Below are positions 56,038 to 62,302 of a DNA stretch of 64,000 nt, piece after piece (position 1 is the first letter of the stretch; each line of letters starts with the position of its first letter). Origin of the DNA: Alteromonas macleodii ATCC 27126 (GTDB lineage: Bacteria; Pseudomonadota; Gammaproteobacteria; Enterobacterales; Alteromonadaceae); assembly GCF_000172635.2 (NCBI RefSeq), contig NC_018632.1, forward strand, positions 2,790,001 to 2,854,000, in the 5' to 3' direction. The notes beneath the pieces are model-generated. The model ran no database searches. It was not told where the DNA came from and saw only the letters and a list, made by a program, of their open reading frames with translations. A program made the position numbers and the translations under genes.

Positions 56038-56160
56038 TTATAACCAGAAGGTGAACCAGCCGGCGATGATATGCATCAACGGGAACGCGATTAGAGTTAC
56101 TAGCGATGCTAGAAAGTACCACTTGTTATAGACTTCTTTGAAATCTGAATTGTCAGCCAT
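56038..56160 (-). CDS. Very small single-helix membrane protein upstream of apt
   Basis: A 40-codon frame starting ATG 56160 and ending TAA 56038. It begins [16 protein letters not shown] and has one hydrophobic helix of about 20 residues (from about 15 to 36) with an aromatic C-terminal end. AGGT lies 7 bases upstream of the ATG. The composition (polar, charged N-terminus then a clean membrane segment) suggests a real small protein; it would be co-transcribed with apt 22 bases downstream. Family unknown. Confidence 0.6.
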
Positions 56161-56313: not shown

Positions 56314-57078
56314 TTAGGATACTGGAAGGAGTATTCCTTTTTGTAGCATGTCAGTGAGGGTCTGGTTCATACCATTTATAAGCACGTTTGAAGGAATTTG
56401 GGGAAGTTGCTGGCACAACGACTCAGCTAATTGTTCTATTTCCATTCCCACTTCGTGCTGTTCCAGCGTATTGACTAAAATAGCCGTCACTGGATTAACA
56501 TGAGTAAATTGAACATCAAACTCACGGTCTCTGTAAACAACGTAGAACTGCTGTTCTTGAGCAGGTTGCTCTGGGATATAATCCTCACCAATTAAATGGA
56601 CTTCAAATCGGTACGCTGCCAAAGAGGCGTAAGGGGACACCCTTATTGCTGTAACGTTGTTTCCTTGTTGGTAGAATTCAACGTTGTCTTCGTTCTTTCT
56701 GATACTGATGTCAAGCTCTAGCCACTCATAGTGAGCAAGTTCCGCAGTAAAATCTGGAAGAGTAATATCGAAGGTTGGCTGTGTTGATAGGTATTCAACG
56801 AACTCTTTACTTATTTCTGCAAAATAGGGGGAACGACACTCGTGCTCAATAAAAAATTGACGCACAATACTCTCCCATCCTTTTTCACCATACTGTTTTA
56901 CCACAATAGATTTTAAAACTGGAAAACCGGTACTGACGAAATTATCGATGTTGTTAAAAAACAGGGATTGATAGATTTGCATCCGACGAATGTTTTCAGC
57001 GTCGGTATCACAAAATGTCTGAGGGTCTTTGATCGCATCAACGAACGTTTTTTGAGTGGTTTGAAATGACTGAGTCAC
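56314..57078 (-). CDS. hvfC: HvfC-like DUF2063 protein (RiPP-modification partner)
   Basis: Partner of the DUF692 enzyme in Hvf/bufferin systems; it carries a DUF2063 domain thought to recognise the precursor peptide. The 254-residue protein has the DUF2063 region at the N-terminus (about 8-100, with I-R-R-M-Q-I-Y-Q-S-L-F-F-N-N-I near residues 29-43 and GFPVLKSIV) and a second domain behind it (about 130-254). Its start overlaps the hvfB stop by 4 bases (ATGA). No DoxX-type gene follows. Confidence 0.87.
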   Translation of the reverse strand: MTQSFQTTQKTFVDAIKDPQTFCDTDAENIRRMQIYQSLFFNNIDNFVSTGFPVLKSIVVKQYGEKGWESIVRQFFIEHECRSPYFAEISKEFVEYLSTQPTFDITLPDFTAELAHYEWLELDISIRKNEDNVEFYQQGNNVTAIRVSPYASLAAYRFEVHLIGEDYIPEQPAQEQQFYVVYRDREFDVQFTHVNPVTAILVNTLEQHEVGMEIEQLAESLCQQLPQIPSNVLINGMNQTLTDMLQKGILLPVS

Positions 57079-57926
57079 GCGACACTTCCTTTAACGTTTG
57101 ATACTCGAACAGCTTCGCATTTTGCTTGAATTTGCTTAATTTTCTTCACTTCTGCCAGTAATTCGCTTAACGGGGGAATATTAAAATCACGCTCTAGTAA
57201 CGTTGGAAATACGCCGTGAGTGAGGTAAGCGTGCTCCAACAAATCCCAAACTGGCTCAATGACATCAGCCCCGTGAGTATCAACTTTCAAATCCTCAGCT
57301 TCATCATAATGACCAGCAATATGGCCATACACAATTTTGTCTGAGGGTAAGCCGTTAATAAACGCTTTCGCATCGTATTTATGGTTGATACTGTTCACGT
57401 AAACATTGTTTACGTCGAGAAGCATTTTGCACCCCGATTCTTTTAGTATGCTCTTAGTAAATTCAAGCTCATCCATCTCTTGGCCTGGCGCAATGTAATA
57501 AGAGACATTTTCTAAGACCAGCGGTCGTTCGATGATATCTTGAACTTGAACAATTCGAGATACTACGTGCTTAATCGCGTCTTCAGTAAAAGGAATTGGC
57601 ATCAGATCGTACATATGCCCGTTGCCAGAACAAAAGCTTAAGTGCTCGCTATACAATGCAATATTGTTTGCATCTAAAAATCGCTTAACGGTTTTTACAA
57701 ACTCGACATCTAGTTTGTCGCTACTTCCGATAGACAAAGATAAACCATGAGTTGTAAAGGGAGCTTGCGAAGACGCTTGCTGAAATTGTTCTTGGTACTT
57801 CCCACCAAGTGGGATCCAATTTTCAGGGGCTACTTCCCAAAAATCGACTTCAGATGGCAATGTAGGTAAAAGCGCTTTTAGCATTTCCCGACGAAACCCA
57901 AGACCTGCGCCACAGATGTTTTTCAT
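57075..57926 (-). CDS. hvfB: HvfB-like DUF692 multinuclear iron enzyme
   Basis: DUF692 TIM-barrel protein related to MbnB, HvfB and BufB, iron enzymes that oxidise cysteines in a precursor peptide. 283 residues from ATG 57926 (AAGGGGAAG ahead); a longer frame to 57980 is less likely. Expected iron-ligand positions are seen: H60 (TTHGLSLS), E94-H95 (YSEHLSF), E139-N140 (VLENVSYY), D171 and N173 (LLDVNNVYVN), H202 and H206 (GHIAGHYDE), D217-H219 (DTHG), and E245 (LLERDFNIPP). It lies between the precursor gene and hvfC. Confidence 0.9.
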   Translation of the reverse strand: MKNICGAGLGFRREMLKALLPTLPSEVDFWEVAPENWIPLGGKYQEQFQQASSQAPFTTHGLSLSIGSSDKLDVEFVKTVKRFLDANNIALYSEHLSFCSGNGHMYDLMPIPFTEDAIKHVVSRIVQVQDIIERPLVLENVSYYIAPGQEMDELEFTKSILKESGCKMLLDVNNVYVNSINHKYDAKAFINGLPSDKIVYGHIAGHYDEAEDLKVDTHGADVIEPVWDLLEHAYLTHGVFPTLLERDFNIPPLSELLAEVKKIKQIQAKCEAVRVSNVKGSVA

Positions 57927-58022
57927 ATCTTCCCCTTTACCGCATGGGATTGCACAATAGTAACGTACGTTACTAGACAAAAAAGGCCATCATTCGACAG
58001 CCACTTTTTGCTAAGCGTAACT

Positions 58023-58057
58023 CGTGTAGCCTTCATCATTCTTTTTCAAGCTACACG
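58023..58057. repeat. Inverted repeat between hvfA and hvfB
   Basis: CGTGTAGC (58023-58030) and GCTACACG (58050-58057) are exact reverse complements with a 19-base loop, in the 149-bp hvfA-hvfB gap. The T-run follows on the + strand only (58061-58066). On the minus transcript it could still fold and set hvfA above hvfB. Confidence 0.6.
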
Positions 58058-58075
58058 ATGTTTTTTGAATGGCGG

Positions 58076-58405
58076 TTACATGCTACCGCATTTACCTTCG
58101 CCGCACTTGCCTTCTTTACCAGCTTTCTTATCGCCACCACATTTACCTTCGCCGCACTTGCCTTCTTTGTCAGCTTTCTTGTCGCCGCCGCACTTACCTT
58201 CTCCGCACTTGCCTTCTTTCTCTGCTTTGTCGCCGCCACATTTTCCTTCGCCACACTTGCCTTCCGCAGCGAATTGGCTATAACCAGATTCTAATGCTTG
58301 CATACCAAATGGATTTACATCAGCTACTGCAACCGTTGACGCCAAAGAGCCAATTACAACTGCACCCAACGCTGTCGCTACTGATGATTTTTTGATTTGT
58401 TTCAT
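58076..58405 (-). CDS. hvfA: HvfA-like copper-binding RiPP precursor with eight EGKCG motifs
   Basis: Exported precursor peptide of 109 residues. The signal peptide covers residues 1-28 (ends A-V-A). The mature part starts DVNPF, has a short leader-like segment (about 29-47), then eight EGKCG motifs in four pairs (Cys 51, 56, 67, 72, 84, 89, 101 and 106) separated by G-G-D-K plus three or four residues. In related systems the HvfB/HvfC complex modifies EGKCG cysteines to copper-binding groups. ATG 58405 has GAGGG 7 bases upstream. It is first in the operon, ahead of hvfB and hvfC. Confidence 0.88.
   Translation of the reverse strand: MKQIKKSSVATALGAVVIGSLASTVAVADVNPFGMQALESGYSQFAAEGKCGEGKCGGDKAEKEGKCGEGKCGGDKKADKEGKCGEGKCGGDKKAGKEGKCGEGKCGSM
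58085..58264 (-). repeat. Coding repeat of paired EGKCG units
   Basis: Four tandem units of 48-51 bases, each coding for EGKCGEGKCG plus a G-D-K-rich spacer. The copies are nearly identical at DNA level, pointing to recent duplication. Core of the HvfA-like precursor. Confidence 0.9.
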
Positions 58406-58493
58406 TGATGTACCCTCAATAATATTAGTCATGTTTGACGCACAGTAAGCACGTGTACTTTAAAAGACCCTGTGGGCTTAAAGGATATTTCAC

Positions 58494-58635: not shown

Positions 58636-61600
58636 GTGAAGCAACAATTTTATCTAGGTCAATGGCAAGTCGATGTAACCAGCAATACTCTATCTCTCGG
58701 CAAGCTTAAGAGGACTATAGAGCCGAAAACCATGGATGTTCTGCTGCTGTTGTGTCAGCAAAAAGGAGAAGTAGTATCCTCTGACGAGATCGTTGCTCAG
58801 TGCTGGCCTAGATCTGTGGTTGGAGACAACCCTGTACACAAAGCTATTACCAATTTGCGACGTGCATTAGGAGATAAAGCTTCAGCACCTGAATATATTG
58901 AAACTATCAGGAAACGAGGATACCGGATTGTTGCTGAGGTTCATTTTATAGGTGATGAGCAGGCACGAGCTTCTGAAACTAAATGGCGAGATGCTTCGCC
59001 GTATGTTGGACTGAATGCATTTTCTGCCAACGAAAGCCAAGTCTACTTTGGCAGAGATGCACTAATCCGTGATTTAGTTTCTCGCAGTTCAGAACTTTTC
59101 AATCGTAAACGACCTCTTTTGATGGTGCTTGGCCCAAGTGGTTCTGGCAAAAGTTCGCTGATCCATGCCGGATTTTTACCTAGGTTACTCGAAAAACAAG
59201 GAGTAAATGGGTTGCATGCACATGATTACTTGAGCGTTGACCTTGCCGATATAAACCCTAACGGCAATCCATTTGCAATCATAGATGAGATAGCGGCTCA
59301 CATGTTGGATTGGGGAAATGACGAAAAAGCGGTTTTTGAAGGTTATAGTGCATCGCTTCTTGCCGACAAACTGCTTACTTCTCCGCAATCAATTGTTGAT
59401 ATTGTTGAGCGTTATTGCGAAGAGCACGAGCATCATACAAAAAGCTCCTACTCTTTTTACGCAATCATTTTAGACCGATTAGAAGTTTTCCTCGCCGACA
59501 CGAAAATAGAGCACAAAGACAAGCAGGCTGTATTCACACTTTTAGAGACACTAAGTCAAAGCAACCTTTTTCTTGTCGTTTTAATTAGCAGAAACGACTT
59601 CTACCCGCTTATTTCTAATTTCGAAGTATTGATGAAAAATAAGTCTCGGGGAGCGCATGTAGATATAGCGCCACCTTCGTTAAGTGAGCTTGGTCAAATA
59701 ATCAAGCTTCCCGCTCTGGCAGCAGAATTGCAATGGGAGCGCGACGGGACAACAAACGCCACTCTCGACGATGTTATTCTTTCTGATGCAAGCCTAGAGC
59801 CCAATTGCCTTCCACTTCTTCAGTACACGCTCCAAGAGCTTTACTTACAACGCGACGGTAACTTACTTAAACGGAATACCTACTACGCGCTAGGAAAAAT
59901 CGATGGAGCCATCGGCCACAAAGCCGAATCAACCTACTCCCAAATGCCTGCATCAGTGCAAAATGCGTTAAACACAGTACTTCCTCTTATTGTTAACTTG
60001 CCTGGAATGGGCAATACGATGACAAGTAAAACAGCCAGTTGGGATGAGCTAAAAGGCGATGATGAGCGTCGGTTCGTCGAGCTCATGGTAGAACAGCGCC
60101 TTTTCGTTTCATTTTTAAATCAAGGGCAAGCCAGCTTCAAAGTTGCTCACGAGGCAGTGTTAAGAAAATGGGAGCGGGTTCAGCAATGGATAGCACAGCA
60201 CCAAAATACACTTTCAATTAAGGCAGCCCTTTATGAACAGGCAAAAACATGGGCAGAGAATGACAAAGATGACGCGTATCTTCTTCAATCAGGAAAGCCG
60301 CTTCTAGATGCCTCGACACTTCTTGATGCAAAATACATCCGACTATCGAATGAAGAGCGGGAGCTTATTCATCAAAGTCAGCGTAAATTCAGAAGGAAAA
60401 GCCTCTTTAAAGCGTTTACTGCCGCACTGTTGGCCGCACTATCTGTTATTTCCTTTGCGGCTATGCTGCACAGTAACCATTCTCAAGCTTTAGCTGAACG
60501 AAAGCGATTGGAAGCCGAAAATCTGATGGGGTTTATGATTGGCGATTTTGCCGATAAGCTTCGAAGCGTAAAACGAATGGATTTGCTAGAAGGTATTAGT
60601 GAACAGGCGCTTAAATACGTCACCCAAGCCCAAGAAATTCAAACGGGATGGATTGGATCGTCAACGCCGAAGCCTAGTTTTGAACTTCGCTTCCAACATG
60701 CTCTGTCTTTGCAAGCAATGGCTGAAGTGCGATTTTATCGCGATGATGCCGATACTGCCCAGCAATTGTATAAAGAAGCCGATAAGCGATTGGGCGCATT
60801 ACTTGAGGAGCAGCCCGACAACTTCAAACTATTATTAGCGGCAGGCGCTAATGCATTCTGGTTGGGAGACATTGAATTAAGAAACTACAATTTTGCGCTG
60901 GCAGATGAGCAGTTTAATCGTTATTTGCGCTTTAGCGAGGAGATGCTGAAGGTATCCCCCAACAATTCGGATGCTTTGCTAGAGCTGAGTTATGCAACTA
61001 ACTCGATTGGTAGTGTCGCGTTTCGTCGACAAGATTTTGACAAAGCTCTTTCGTTCTTCGAATCATCTCTGGCTTATAAGCAAAAACTTTTTGAAAAATC
61101 AGAGTCACCTATTATTACCGCAACCGCAGTTGCAGATACTTATTCTTGGATCGCGTCTACACACATTCACAAGGGCCGTATTAACGAAGCACAATTAACC
61201 TTTGCGAAAGCAGAAGCTATTTTAGAGAAAAGTCTATCTACCTACTCAGGGAATGCAGAGATAATCGAAACACTTAGTTTGATTAAAATGAATGCCGCAA
61301 AGAGTAGCCAATTTACTGAAGACCTTAATACTTCCATTGAACTTTTAAATGATGCTAAAAAATTGTTGATTCAATTACTTGAGCAGGACCCTGCAAACAG
61401 TTCATGGCAGTCGTACTATAAACATGCCAGGGCGTTACTGGACTACCACAGATCACTAAACCCAATCTCTGCATTACACAATCAAAATGTAAAACAAGAT
61501 ATCACTATTGATGAACTGTTAAGAGATGGAGCACGCCTCTCTTCGAAGATTTACGCAGTCCTCTCTTACCAATATCGTCAGGAATGGCAAATCAGTAGAA

Positions 61601-61986
61601 ATTTGCTAGCTCAAATAAATATAGAGCACGCCATTGAAGAGAATTTAAATAAGAATATTAAGGCAGAATTCATAAATGTTAGGGAATTAGAAAACTATGT
61701 CCTATACCAAATCGCGAGTATTCGCCAAACGCTCAACGATGAGGGAAAAAATATAGATATAGTTCAAAAGGAATGTGAAACACTGTTTTCTCTTACAAAC
61801 TCGGTAGTCAACACAAGTAAACACCCTTTATTCTTACAAGCCCATGTATTCGCGGGATACTGTTTAAATAAACAAACAGTAGTAGCCAAAGTACGAAGGC
61901 AACTCGCTCTTATGAAAGTACCGATGCCACTTTATTTTACCAACATCAATAAGGATTTGAACAATGACAACACCACCGAACTATAA
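58636..61986 (+). CDS. Winged-helix/nSTAND NTPase/TPR membrane regulator (CadC-like)
   Basis: Large predicted membrane-bound transcription regulator of 1116 residues. Domains in order: OmpR/CadC-type winged helix (about 1-105, with EPKTMDVLLLLCQQKGEVV and IETIRKRGYRIV), nSTAND P-loop NTPase (about 120-480: Walker A GPSGSGKSS near 166, Walker B AIILDRLEVFL near 276), a transmembrane helix (about 592-611), and a periplasmic TPR-rich region (about 640-1090). GTG 58636 follows AGGG; the frame is open 67 codons upstream but that part is AT-rich and not protein-like. It is divergent from hvfA and overlaps the next gene by 23 bases. Confidence 0.83.
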   Translation: MKQQFYLGQWQVDVTSNTLSLGKLKRTIEPKTMDVLLLLCQQKGEVVSSDEIVAQCWPRSVVGDNPVHKAITNLRRALGDKASAPEYIETIRKRGYRIVAEVHFIGDEQARASETKWRDASPYVGLNAFSANESQVYFGRDALIRDLVSRSSELFNRKRPLLMVLGPSGSGKSSLIHAGFLPRLLEKQGVNGLHAHDYLSVDLADINPNGNPFAIIDEIAAHMLDWGNDEKAVFEGYSASLLADKLLTSPQSIVDIVERYCEEHEHHTKSSYSFYAIILDRLEVFLADTKIEHKDKQAVFTLLETLSQSNLFLVVLISRNDFYPLISNFEVLMKNKSRGAHVDIAPPSLSELGQIIKLPALAAELQWERDGTTNATLDDVILSDASLEPNCLPLLQYTLQELYLQRDGNLLKRNTYYALGKIDGAIGHKAESTYSQMPASVQNALNTVLPLIVNLPGMGNTMTSKTASWDELKGDDERRFVELMVEQRLFVSFLNQGQASFKVAHEAVLRKWERVQQWIAQHQNTLSIKAALYEQAKTWAENDKDDAYLLQSGKPLLDASTLLDAKYIRLSNEERELIHQSQRKFRRKSLFKAFTAALLAALSVISFAAMLHSNHSQALAERKRLEAENLMGFMIGDFADKLRSVKRMDLLEGISEQALKYVTQAQEIQTGWIGSSTPKPSFELRFQHALSLQAMAEVRFYRDDADTAQQLYKEADKRLGALLEEQPDNFKLLLAAGANAFWLGDIELRNYNFALADEQFNRYLRFSEEMLKVSPNNSDALLELSYATNSIGSVAFRRQDFDKALSFFESSLAYKQKLFEKSESPIITATAVADTYSWIASTHIHKGRINEAQLTFAKAEAILEKSLSTYSGNAEIIETLSLIKMNAAKSSQFTEDLNTSIELLNDAKKLLIQLLEQDPANSSWQSYYKHARALLDYHRSLNPISALHNQNVKQDITIDELLRDGARLSSKIYAVLSYQYRQEWQISRNLLAQINIEHAIEENLNKNIKAEFINVRELENYVLYQIASIRQTLNDEGKNIDIVQKECETLFSLTNSVVNTSKHPLFLQAHVFAGYCLNKQTVVAKVRRQLALMKVPMPLYFTNINKDLNNDNTTEL

Positions 61987-62302
61987 CTACAGCGTTTCCG
62001 TTGACGCAGAAGGAGTTTTTACCATTATACCGGAGGGCGGTGCTCCAGAGTCGCCCATTACCGTTACTGTGCCGAATACAACTATAACTTATACTCTTAC
62101 CTCAGATACCCCAGCTGCCATGGTGTTTTTAGCCCCCGAAATAACGAATGATCCTGAAGGGGATTTAACTTGGGAAATTAAGGATTCGGGTAGGTGCATT
62201 GTTATTACTGATTCAGACGCTGACGAAGAAAACGCGATTTGCGTAAAACTAGTTACCGGATTTATTAGCCCAGACCCTCAAGTAAAAAACGAGCCTGTTT
62301 AA
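61964..62302 (+). CDS. DP-EP family-like small protein
   Basis: A 112-residue acidic, beta-rich protein without signal peptide. It begins TTPPNYNYSVSVDAEGVFTI, has VTVPNTTITYTL, and ends SPDPQVKNEPV, the pattern that suggests the DP-EP (DUF1888) family of marine gammaproteobacteria; function unknown. It starts 23 bases inside the regulator gene in another frame, implying translational coupling and a linked role. Confidence 0.65.
   Translation: MTTPPNYNYSVSVDAEGVFTIIPEGGAPESPITVTVPNTTITYTLTSDTPAAMVFLAPEITNDPEGDLTWEIKDSGRCIVITDSDADEENAICVKLVTGFISPDPQVKNEPV

Follow-up and report, generated by a model that had tools for sequence, protein, structure and literature searches.

What is an operon encoding a peptide full of EGKCG motifs doing in a marine bacterium, and what switches it on? 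The question is raised by hvfABC in the window, by which we mean the whole 64,000-nucleotide stretch of Alteromonas macleodii ATCC 27126 that was analyzed (NC_018632.1, positions 2,790,001 to 2,854,000). A preliminary description of this locus read it as a Hvf/bufferin-type operon for an exported copper buffer. What it observed was confirmed, and its interpretation was supported in part: the Hvf type stood, while the bufferin type and the claim of a high motif number did not. We propose, with a probability of about 0.77, that hvfABC is a thiooxazole peptide operon within an envelope-stress regulon, governed by an unlinked ECF sigma factor that activates its own gene and is paired with a DUF3379 protein. 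New here is DNA evidence suggesting that hvfABC and msrP are switched on by a distant stress sigma factor.

The operon and its predicted product

The three genes lie on the minus strand in the order precursor, DUF692, DUF2063, as first described, and the profile search proposed at that stage passed the KCGExKCG-domain, HvfB, and HvfC models. hvfA (58076-58405) encodes a precursor peptide of 109 aa, matching NCBIfam NF050137 (KCGExKCG twice) with 87.1 bits (cut-off 19.5, E = 4.2e-25). hvfB (57075-57926), taken from its ATG rather than from the TTG at 57980 to which the mechanical open reading frame extends, encodes an MNIO/DUF692 maturase of 283 aa that scored 430.9 bits under the HvfB model NF003818 (cut-off 360, E = 1.9e-129) and 341.9 bits under Pfam PF05114. 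hvfC (56314-57078, GTG start) overlaps hvfB by the four bases already noted (57075-57078) and encodes the DUF2063 + NGO1945_C partner protein of 254 aa, with 261.3 bits under the HvfC model NF050145 (cut-off 142, E = 9.4e-78) and scores above cut-off for PF09836 and PF22106 of Pfam. Under the HvfA equivalog model NF050188 the precursor reached 56.3 bits, below the cut-off of 95, and it is therefore not filed as an equivalog; its sequence places it as the HvfA kind. The label Hvf fits and the label bufferin does not, because HvfB passed the HvfB model and failed the bufferin maturase (BufB) model NF050167 (261.9 bits vs 310). A Pfam search of the precursor returned no match at E <= 1, hence no DUF2282. 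These matches assign the operon to an established type, oxazolin/captophorin (Hvf). It is an unremarkable copy, from a marine bacterium, of a three-gene set already described, whose product is predicted to be exported and to bind copper. The marine host assumed at the outset is very likely a marine Alteromonas; among the matches listed, the nearest named HvfB is that of A. portus, at 99% identity, and the named genomes that come closest are all Alteromonas.

Read by eye, HvfA begins with a Sec-like signal peptide (MKQIKK...STVAVA|D, 58322-58405, minus strand) composed of KK, a hydrophobic stretch, and an AVA site, and this leader is conserved in the genus alignment. The core (58079-58264, minus strand) carries at the HvfA end four EGKCGEGKCG pairs, the eight motifs counted originally. 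In the mechanism that we propose, HvfA would be made with its Sec signal, the iron enzyme HvfB would act with HvfC on every EGKCG, turning its Cys into a 5-thiooxazole that binds copper, and export of the modified peptide would follow, as published relatives suggest. In captophorins the EGKCG repeats lose 4 H each, form 5-thiooxazole, and bind Cu, and such pathways are induced by copper, gold, and oxidative stress (PMC13097082).

The metal site of HvfB is consistent with such chemistry. Its MNIO motifs are HGLSLS, SEHLSF, LENVSYY, LDVNN, HIAGH, VDTHG, and LLERD, and for the most part they recur in PDB 3bww, which is closest in sequence among MNIOs of solved structure. Absence of the DUF692 ligand residues from an alignment had been named as a refuting result; the alignment instead showed the metal-site motifs to be present and H60, H95, E139, D171, N174, H202, D216, H218, and E245 each to be invariant in 51/51 rows, read out of 52 genus loci. 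Among these residues are the expected iron ligands of MNIO enzymes. A published account reports N175, D242, and H244 of HvfB as essential and 3bww as 72.4% identical to HvfB (PMC13419390); counterparts of the three residues should lie in LDVNN and VDTHG, matched by motif only.

HvfB is present in 53/59 genomes of the genus, and hvf loci were collected from 51 of the other 52 HvfB-positive genomes, leaving out G057, whose locus is split at contig ends. Across the 50 countable loci, the window included and two with masked bases left out (L040 and L067), precursors hold 4-16 EGKCG with a median of 11.5, and 37 of them have more than eight, so the eight motifs are not a high number as had been supposed. 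The units of HvfA are 16-17 residues long; published precursors are described with a unit of 17 residues and as many as 58 Cys (PMC12452194). Units appear to be gained and lost quickly, since locus L060 has 12 motifs vs eight in the window despite a 99% identical HvfB. A second, distant MNIO (28-31% identity) occurs in ten genus genomes, including those of L056-L059, and in the 4 of 10 loci scanned, no frame near it held more than one EGKCG-like motif.

No DoxX-type gene, a common though not essential neighbor in oxazolin/Hvf clusters, adjoins the operon, as first noted: hvfC is followed by a 40-aa open reading frame and apt, and hvfA stands beside a divergent regulator. The genome has only two DoxX loci, both distant from the operon; they were rejected as unlinked members since neither contains the promoter box described below. 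apt, dnaX, and ybaB lie downstream in 51/51 loci of the other genomes, and the 40-aa frame (56038-56160, minus strand), which has one hydrophobic segment and no Pfam match, recurs in 52/52 genus loci. On the plus strand, the divergent gene (58636-61986) encodes an OmpR-type winged helix, an nSTAND1 NTPase, and TPR repeats, and is followed by a gene for a small DP-EP family protein (61964-62302). It adjoins hvfA in 13 of the 26 loci whose upstream sequence reaches 4 kb or more, and it is present as well in L084, a short locus outside this set. Further upstream, 9/51 collected loci (L034, L038, L050, L054, L055, L064, L071, L086, and L088) have the end of a 23S rRNA at 1.3-6.4 kb from the hvfA frame, and many draft contigs stop near this 23S rRNA region.

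A weak terminator-like hairpin with a T-run lies between hvfA and hvfB (57985-58002, minus strand) and is possibly a partial terminator. Sites of this type numbered 2 in the scanned window region vs 2.2 in shuffles, and they were found in 13/43 of the hvfA-hvfB gaps compared (43 of 52) vs 0.8 expected from shuffles. Such a hairpin may hold the precursor above the enzyme levels.

A conserved promoter box upstream of hvfA

Alignment of 23 of the 52 upstream stretches revealed a single almost invariant block, and a pattern scan of all 52 recovered it as GAAA[T/G]-N17-GGTCT, with mixed spacer bases, in 51/52 genus loci; the exception, L062, has GTAAT in place of GAAAT. In the window the box reads GAAAT-N17-GGTCT (58465-58491, minus strand), and across the genus it stands 68 to 104 bases before the hvfA start codon as taken. 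A GAAA-type -35 and a short -10 at fixed spacing are typical of ECF sigma promoters. On both strands of the window, the copy before hvfA is the sole strict one. Over 1.41 million strand-bases of genus loci, the strict box has 52 copies, of which 51 stand at hvfA and the remaining one lies elsewhere in L071, vs a single copy of the reversed pattern. The box was absent upstream of hvfB (0/51), of hvfC, apt, dnaX, and ybaB (0/52 each), and of the divergent regulator (0/13). A sigma-70 promoter was rejected for hvfA, none lying before it on the minus strand; promoter-like sites of that class between 55950 and 58700 numbered 4 vs 5.7 in shuffles.

The box extends beyond the genus. When one genome was sampled from each of 30 other genera in the family, 24 were evaluable, the remainder being cut by contig ends (G101, G108) or having no precursor in the stretch (G133, G239, G065, G206). 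A strict box at hvfA was found in 19/30, that is 19/24 evaluable genera, and a box with a 16-base spacer in two more; it was absent in three of the 24 (G074, G157, G190). Among named relatives, we took the best 80 of 242 and excluded 4 contig-cut and 5 precursor-less loci, leaving 71 evaluable, of which 63 have the strict hvfA box, 65 have it when GGTC is accepted, and one more has it with a 16-base spacer. Boxed named genera include Pseudoalteromonas, Shewanella, Bowmanella, Paraglaciecola, and Algicola. The five named loci without a box are L341, L352, L373, L385, and L386, the last two being metagenome bins outside the boxed genera named. These counts are not independent, because all the species are related and the sets overlap, the named loci partly repeating genus genomes.

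A candidate sigma factor and its possible other targets

The genome holds 21 matches to sigma region 4. When 20 of them were scanned with 1.5 kb flanks, the exact N17 box appeared at one, directly before that sigma's own start codon. This is an ECF sigma gene (L113, G000:C1:1343981-1344490) unlinked to hvfABC. The gene after it, overlapping its end, encodes a DUF3379 membrane protein (E = 2.7e-74) that, from its position and shape, is probably an anti-sigma factor. The ECF gene is present in 59/59 genus genomes, and the strict box precedes it in 58 of them, 35 bases (once 36) before the ATG; in L225 the spacer is one base shorter. Six genomes without an HvfB match retain the boxed ECF sigma gene. 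Self-activation is usual among ECF genes, and the tie between the hvfA box and this sigma factor runs solely through the sigma's own promoter.

The box before the ECF gene also overlaps a possible in-frame upstream ATG. A promoter is preferred over coding constraint as its cause, because in rows with T before GAAA (e.g., L240) a TGA closes the upstream frame and the box is nevertheless kept. The GGTCT ends only 8 bases before the ATG, so the sigma mRNA may be leaderless.

Across the 30 sampled genera, DUF3379 scores above cut-off in 27 and below it in G157, G190, and G239. None of these three, two of them evaluable, has a box at hvfA; G074 has DUF3379 yet no hvfA box. The sigma gene itself carries the strict box in 16/28 genera and GAAA[T/G]-N17-GGTC in 9 more, and neither form in G258, G267, and G157. 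Even relaxed patterns gave no box before the sigma gene of G258 or G267, although hvfA is boxed in both, strictly in G258 and with a 16-base spacer in G267.

Exact intergenic boxes in the genome include those before msrP and gor. MsrP repairs oxidized methionine in the periplasm. The box precedes msrP in 27/30 of the closest and 19/20 of the more distant genomes (46/50, tested in 50 of 57 genomes), and by this conservation msrP is a stable partner of the box set. gor, tested in 50 of 59 genomes, was rejected as a core member because its box is found in 19/30 of the closest but 0/20 of the more distant genomes (19/50); by this pattern it has joined in one part of the genus only. Control stretches on the opposite strand and downstream gave 0/270 boxes, and another 40 upstream stretches, read on the opposite strand, gave none. 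A ChrR-like cupin gene, boxed in this genome, was rejected since 6/30 relatives share its box. Other intergenic N17 boxes precede moaA, an MBL-fold protein gene, a chemotaxis-like gene, and a response regulator gene (L098, L107, L108, and L090), the last two products being named from sequence by eye; moaA would fit the set because MsrP needs the molybdenum cofactor. Genome-wide, TGAAAK-N16-18-GGTCT matched 21 times vs 13 for the reversed pattern, with 13 of the 21 inside open reading frames of at least 100 aa, and the non-T form matched 7 times vs 11 reversed. The genome-wide counts show no clear enrichment, and the regulon case rests on conservation.

Readings of the operon and known systems

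Taken together, we propose that in Alteromonas and its relatives, transcription of hvfABC would be started by the unlinked ECF sigma factor encoded with the DUF3379 protein. This sigma factor would drive hvfABC, msrP, and the gene that encodes it, joined in some species by gor, in one envelope oxidant (perhaps oxidant-plus-copper) response. The peptide would handle copper that this response releases or makes dangerous. The gene identities, the conserved residues, and the shared box with its specificity are observed; that this sigma factor reads the box, what induces it, how the peptide is modified, and that it binds copper are inferences. A role as copper buffer, as originally suggested, is plausible from published relatives, but the promoter evidence weighs no less in favor of envelope oxidative stress.

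Of the competing accounts, the one that survives best makes the peptide mainly a sacrificial antioxidant, whose sulfur groups react with HOCl/HOBr and for which copper binding is secondary. The box common to hvfA and msrP and the induction of the homologous Haemophilus cluster by HOCl (PMC7907618) would suit this account, yet published captophorins bind copper (PMC13097082) and a mere scavenger would hardly call for enzymatic thiooxazole synthesis; we consider it doubtful, if worth keeping in mind. We hold it improbable that the product is a plain copper buffer under copper-specific control (e.g., CueR, CusR, or the divergent neighbor), with no link to an oxidant sigma. Published EGKCG peptides do bind copper, such clusters respond to excess copper among other inducers (PMC13097082), and a divergent winged-helix/nSTAND1/TPR regulator adjoins hvfA. 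However, that regulator is adjacent in 13/26 loci, whereas the box stands in 51/52, and the box is shared with a methionine-sulfoxide repair gene; the regulator, box-free upstream, was rejected as dedicated to hvfA. Slightly less probable again is that another sigma factor or activator reads the box and the DUF3379-linked ECF gene is just another target: the 21 region-4 matches, the putative nature of the ECF-box link, and the box-free sigma genes of G258 and G267 would allow it, but the exact box occurs at one of 20 sigma loci, before that sigma's own start, as usual for self-activating ECF genes, and the two evaluable genera without DUF3379 also have no hvfA box.

Under control by the ECF/DUF3379 pair, hypobromous or hypochlorous acid would be a reasonable inducer in an alga-associated marine bacterium. 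We lean towards a wider form of this proposal, in which the EGKCG peptide, with MsrP, is a core output of the ECF sigma factor in Alteromonadaceae, Pseudoalteromonas, and Shewanella, and what DUF3379 senses is either copper-thiol stress or an oxidant in the envelope, perhaps HOBr/HOCl of algal origin. If true, EGKCG metallophores would be envelope redox-stress effectors first. What these peptides do for the cell is described as unsettled (PMC13097082). A constant box that would link hvfABC with a single sigma factor and with MsrP, in marine bacteria that can be cultured, offers a direct route to the question whether they defend against oxidants, against copper, or against both. Among the papers listed by our literature search, which had most subscription journals outside it, none was seen to link an hvf operon to an ECF/DUF3379 sigma factor, and DUF3379 was named in no paper within it; the proposal would give DUF3379 a first role.

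Among known systems, the bufferin Buf1 clusters with sigma/NrsF genes share the MNIO and the DUF2063 partner, and have a role in copper stress that may be common to both (PMC12452194); ECF control is reported there for Caulobacter sigma-F (PMC3511200). Unlike Buf1, the operon studied here has no DUF2282 match in its precursor, scores below the BufB cut-off, and has an unlinked sigma gene. From the Buf_EGKCG/oxazolin type 1 precursors, of which HvfA is one of about 2,000 (PMC12452194), it shows no structural difference. Fontiphorin and the other captophorins share the EGKCG repeats and the MNIO with its DUF2063 partner; theirs carry 5-thiooxazole, FonA has seven sites, and the available text names no specific sigma factor for captophorins (PMC13097082). 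mmrABC, from a different genus, the marine Microbulbifer, likewise has three genes and EGKCG pairs as cassettes, with 5 to 8 Cys, and DoxX goes unmentioned in the available part of that account (PMC12538549). Oxazolin (hvf) of Haemophilus influenzae shares the EGKCG precursor, the HvfB-type MNIO, and the DUF2063 partner, and has six modified groups (PMC13419390) vs the eight motifs here. A DoxX/COG3767/DUF692/DUF2063 cluster of H. influenzae, which we take from its gene content to be hvf, has four genes, and HOCl induces every one of them in a manner dependent on the ECF factor RpoE2 (PMC7907618). Unlike that cluster, the window operon has no adjacent DoxX gene, and here ECF control is suggested by the box; control of hvfABC by the ECF/DUF3379 pair would be the counterpart of RpoE2 control. 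The sigma partners are set apart by description, a DUF3379 membrane protein here and the 67-aa HrsE in Haemophilus. If the proposal is true, a kind of operon wired to RpoE2/SigE in Haemophilus and Neisseria would be wired here to another sigma pair.
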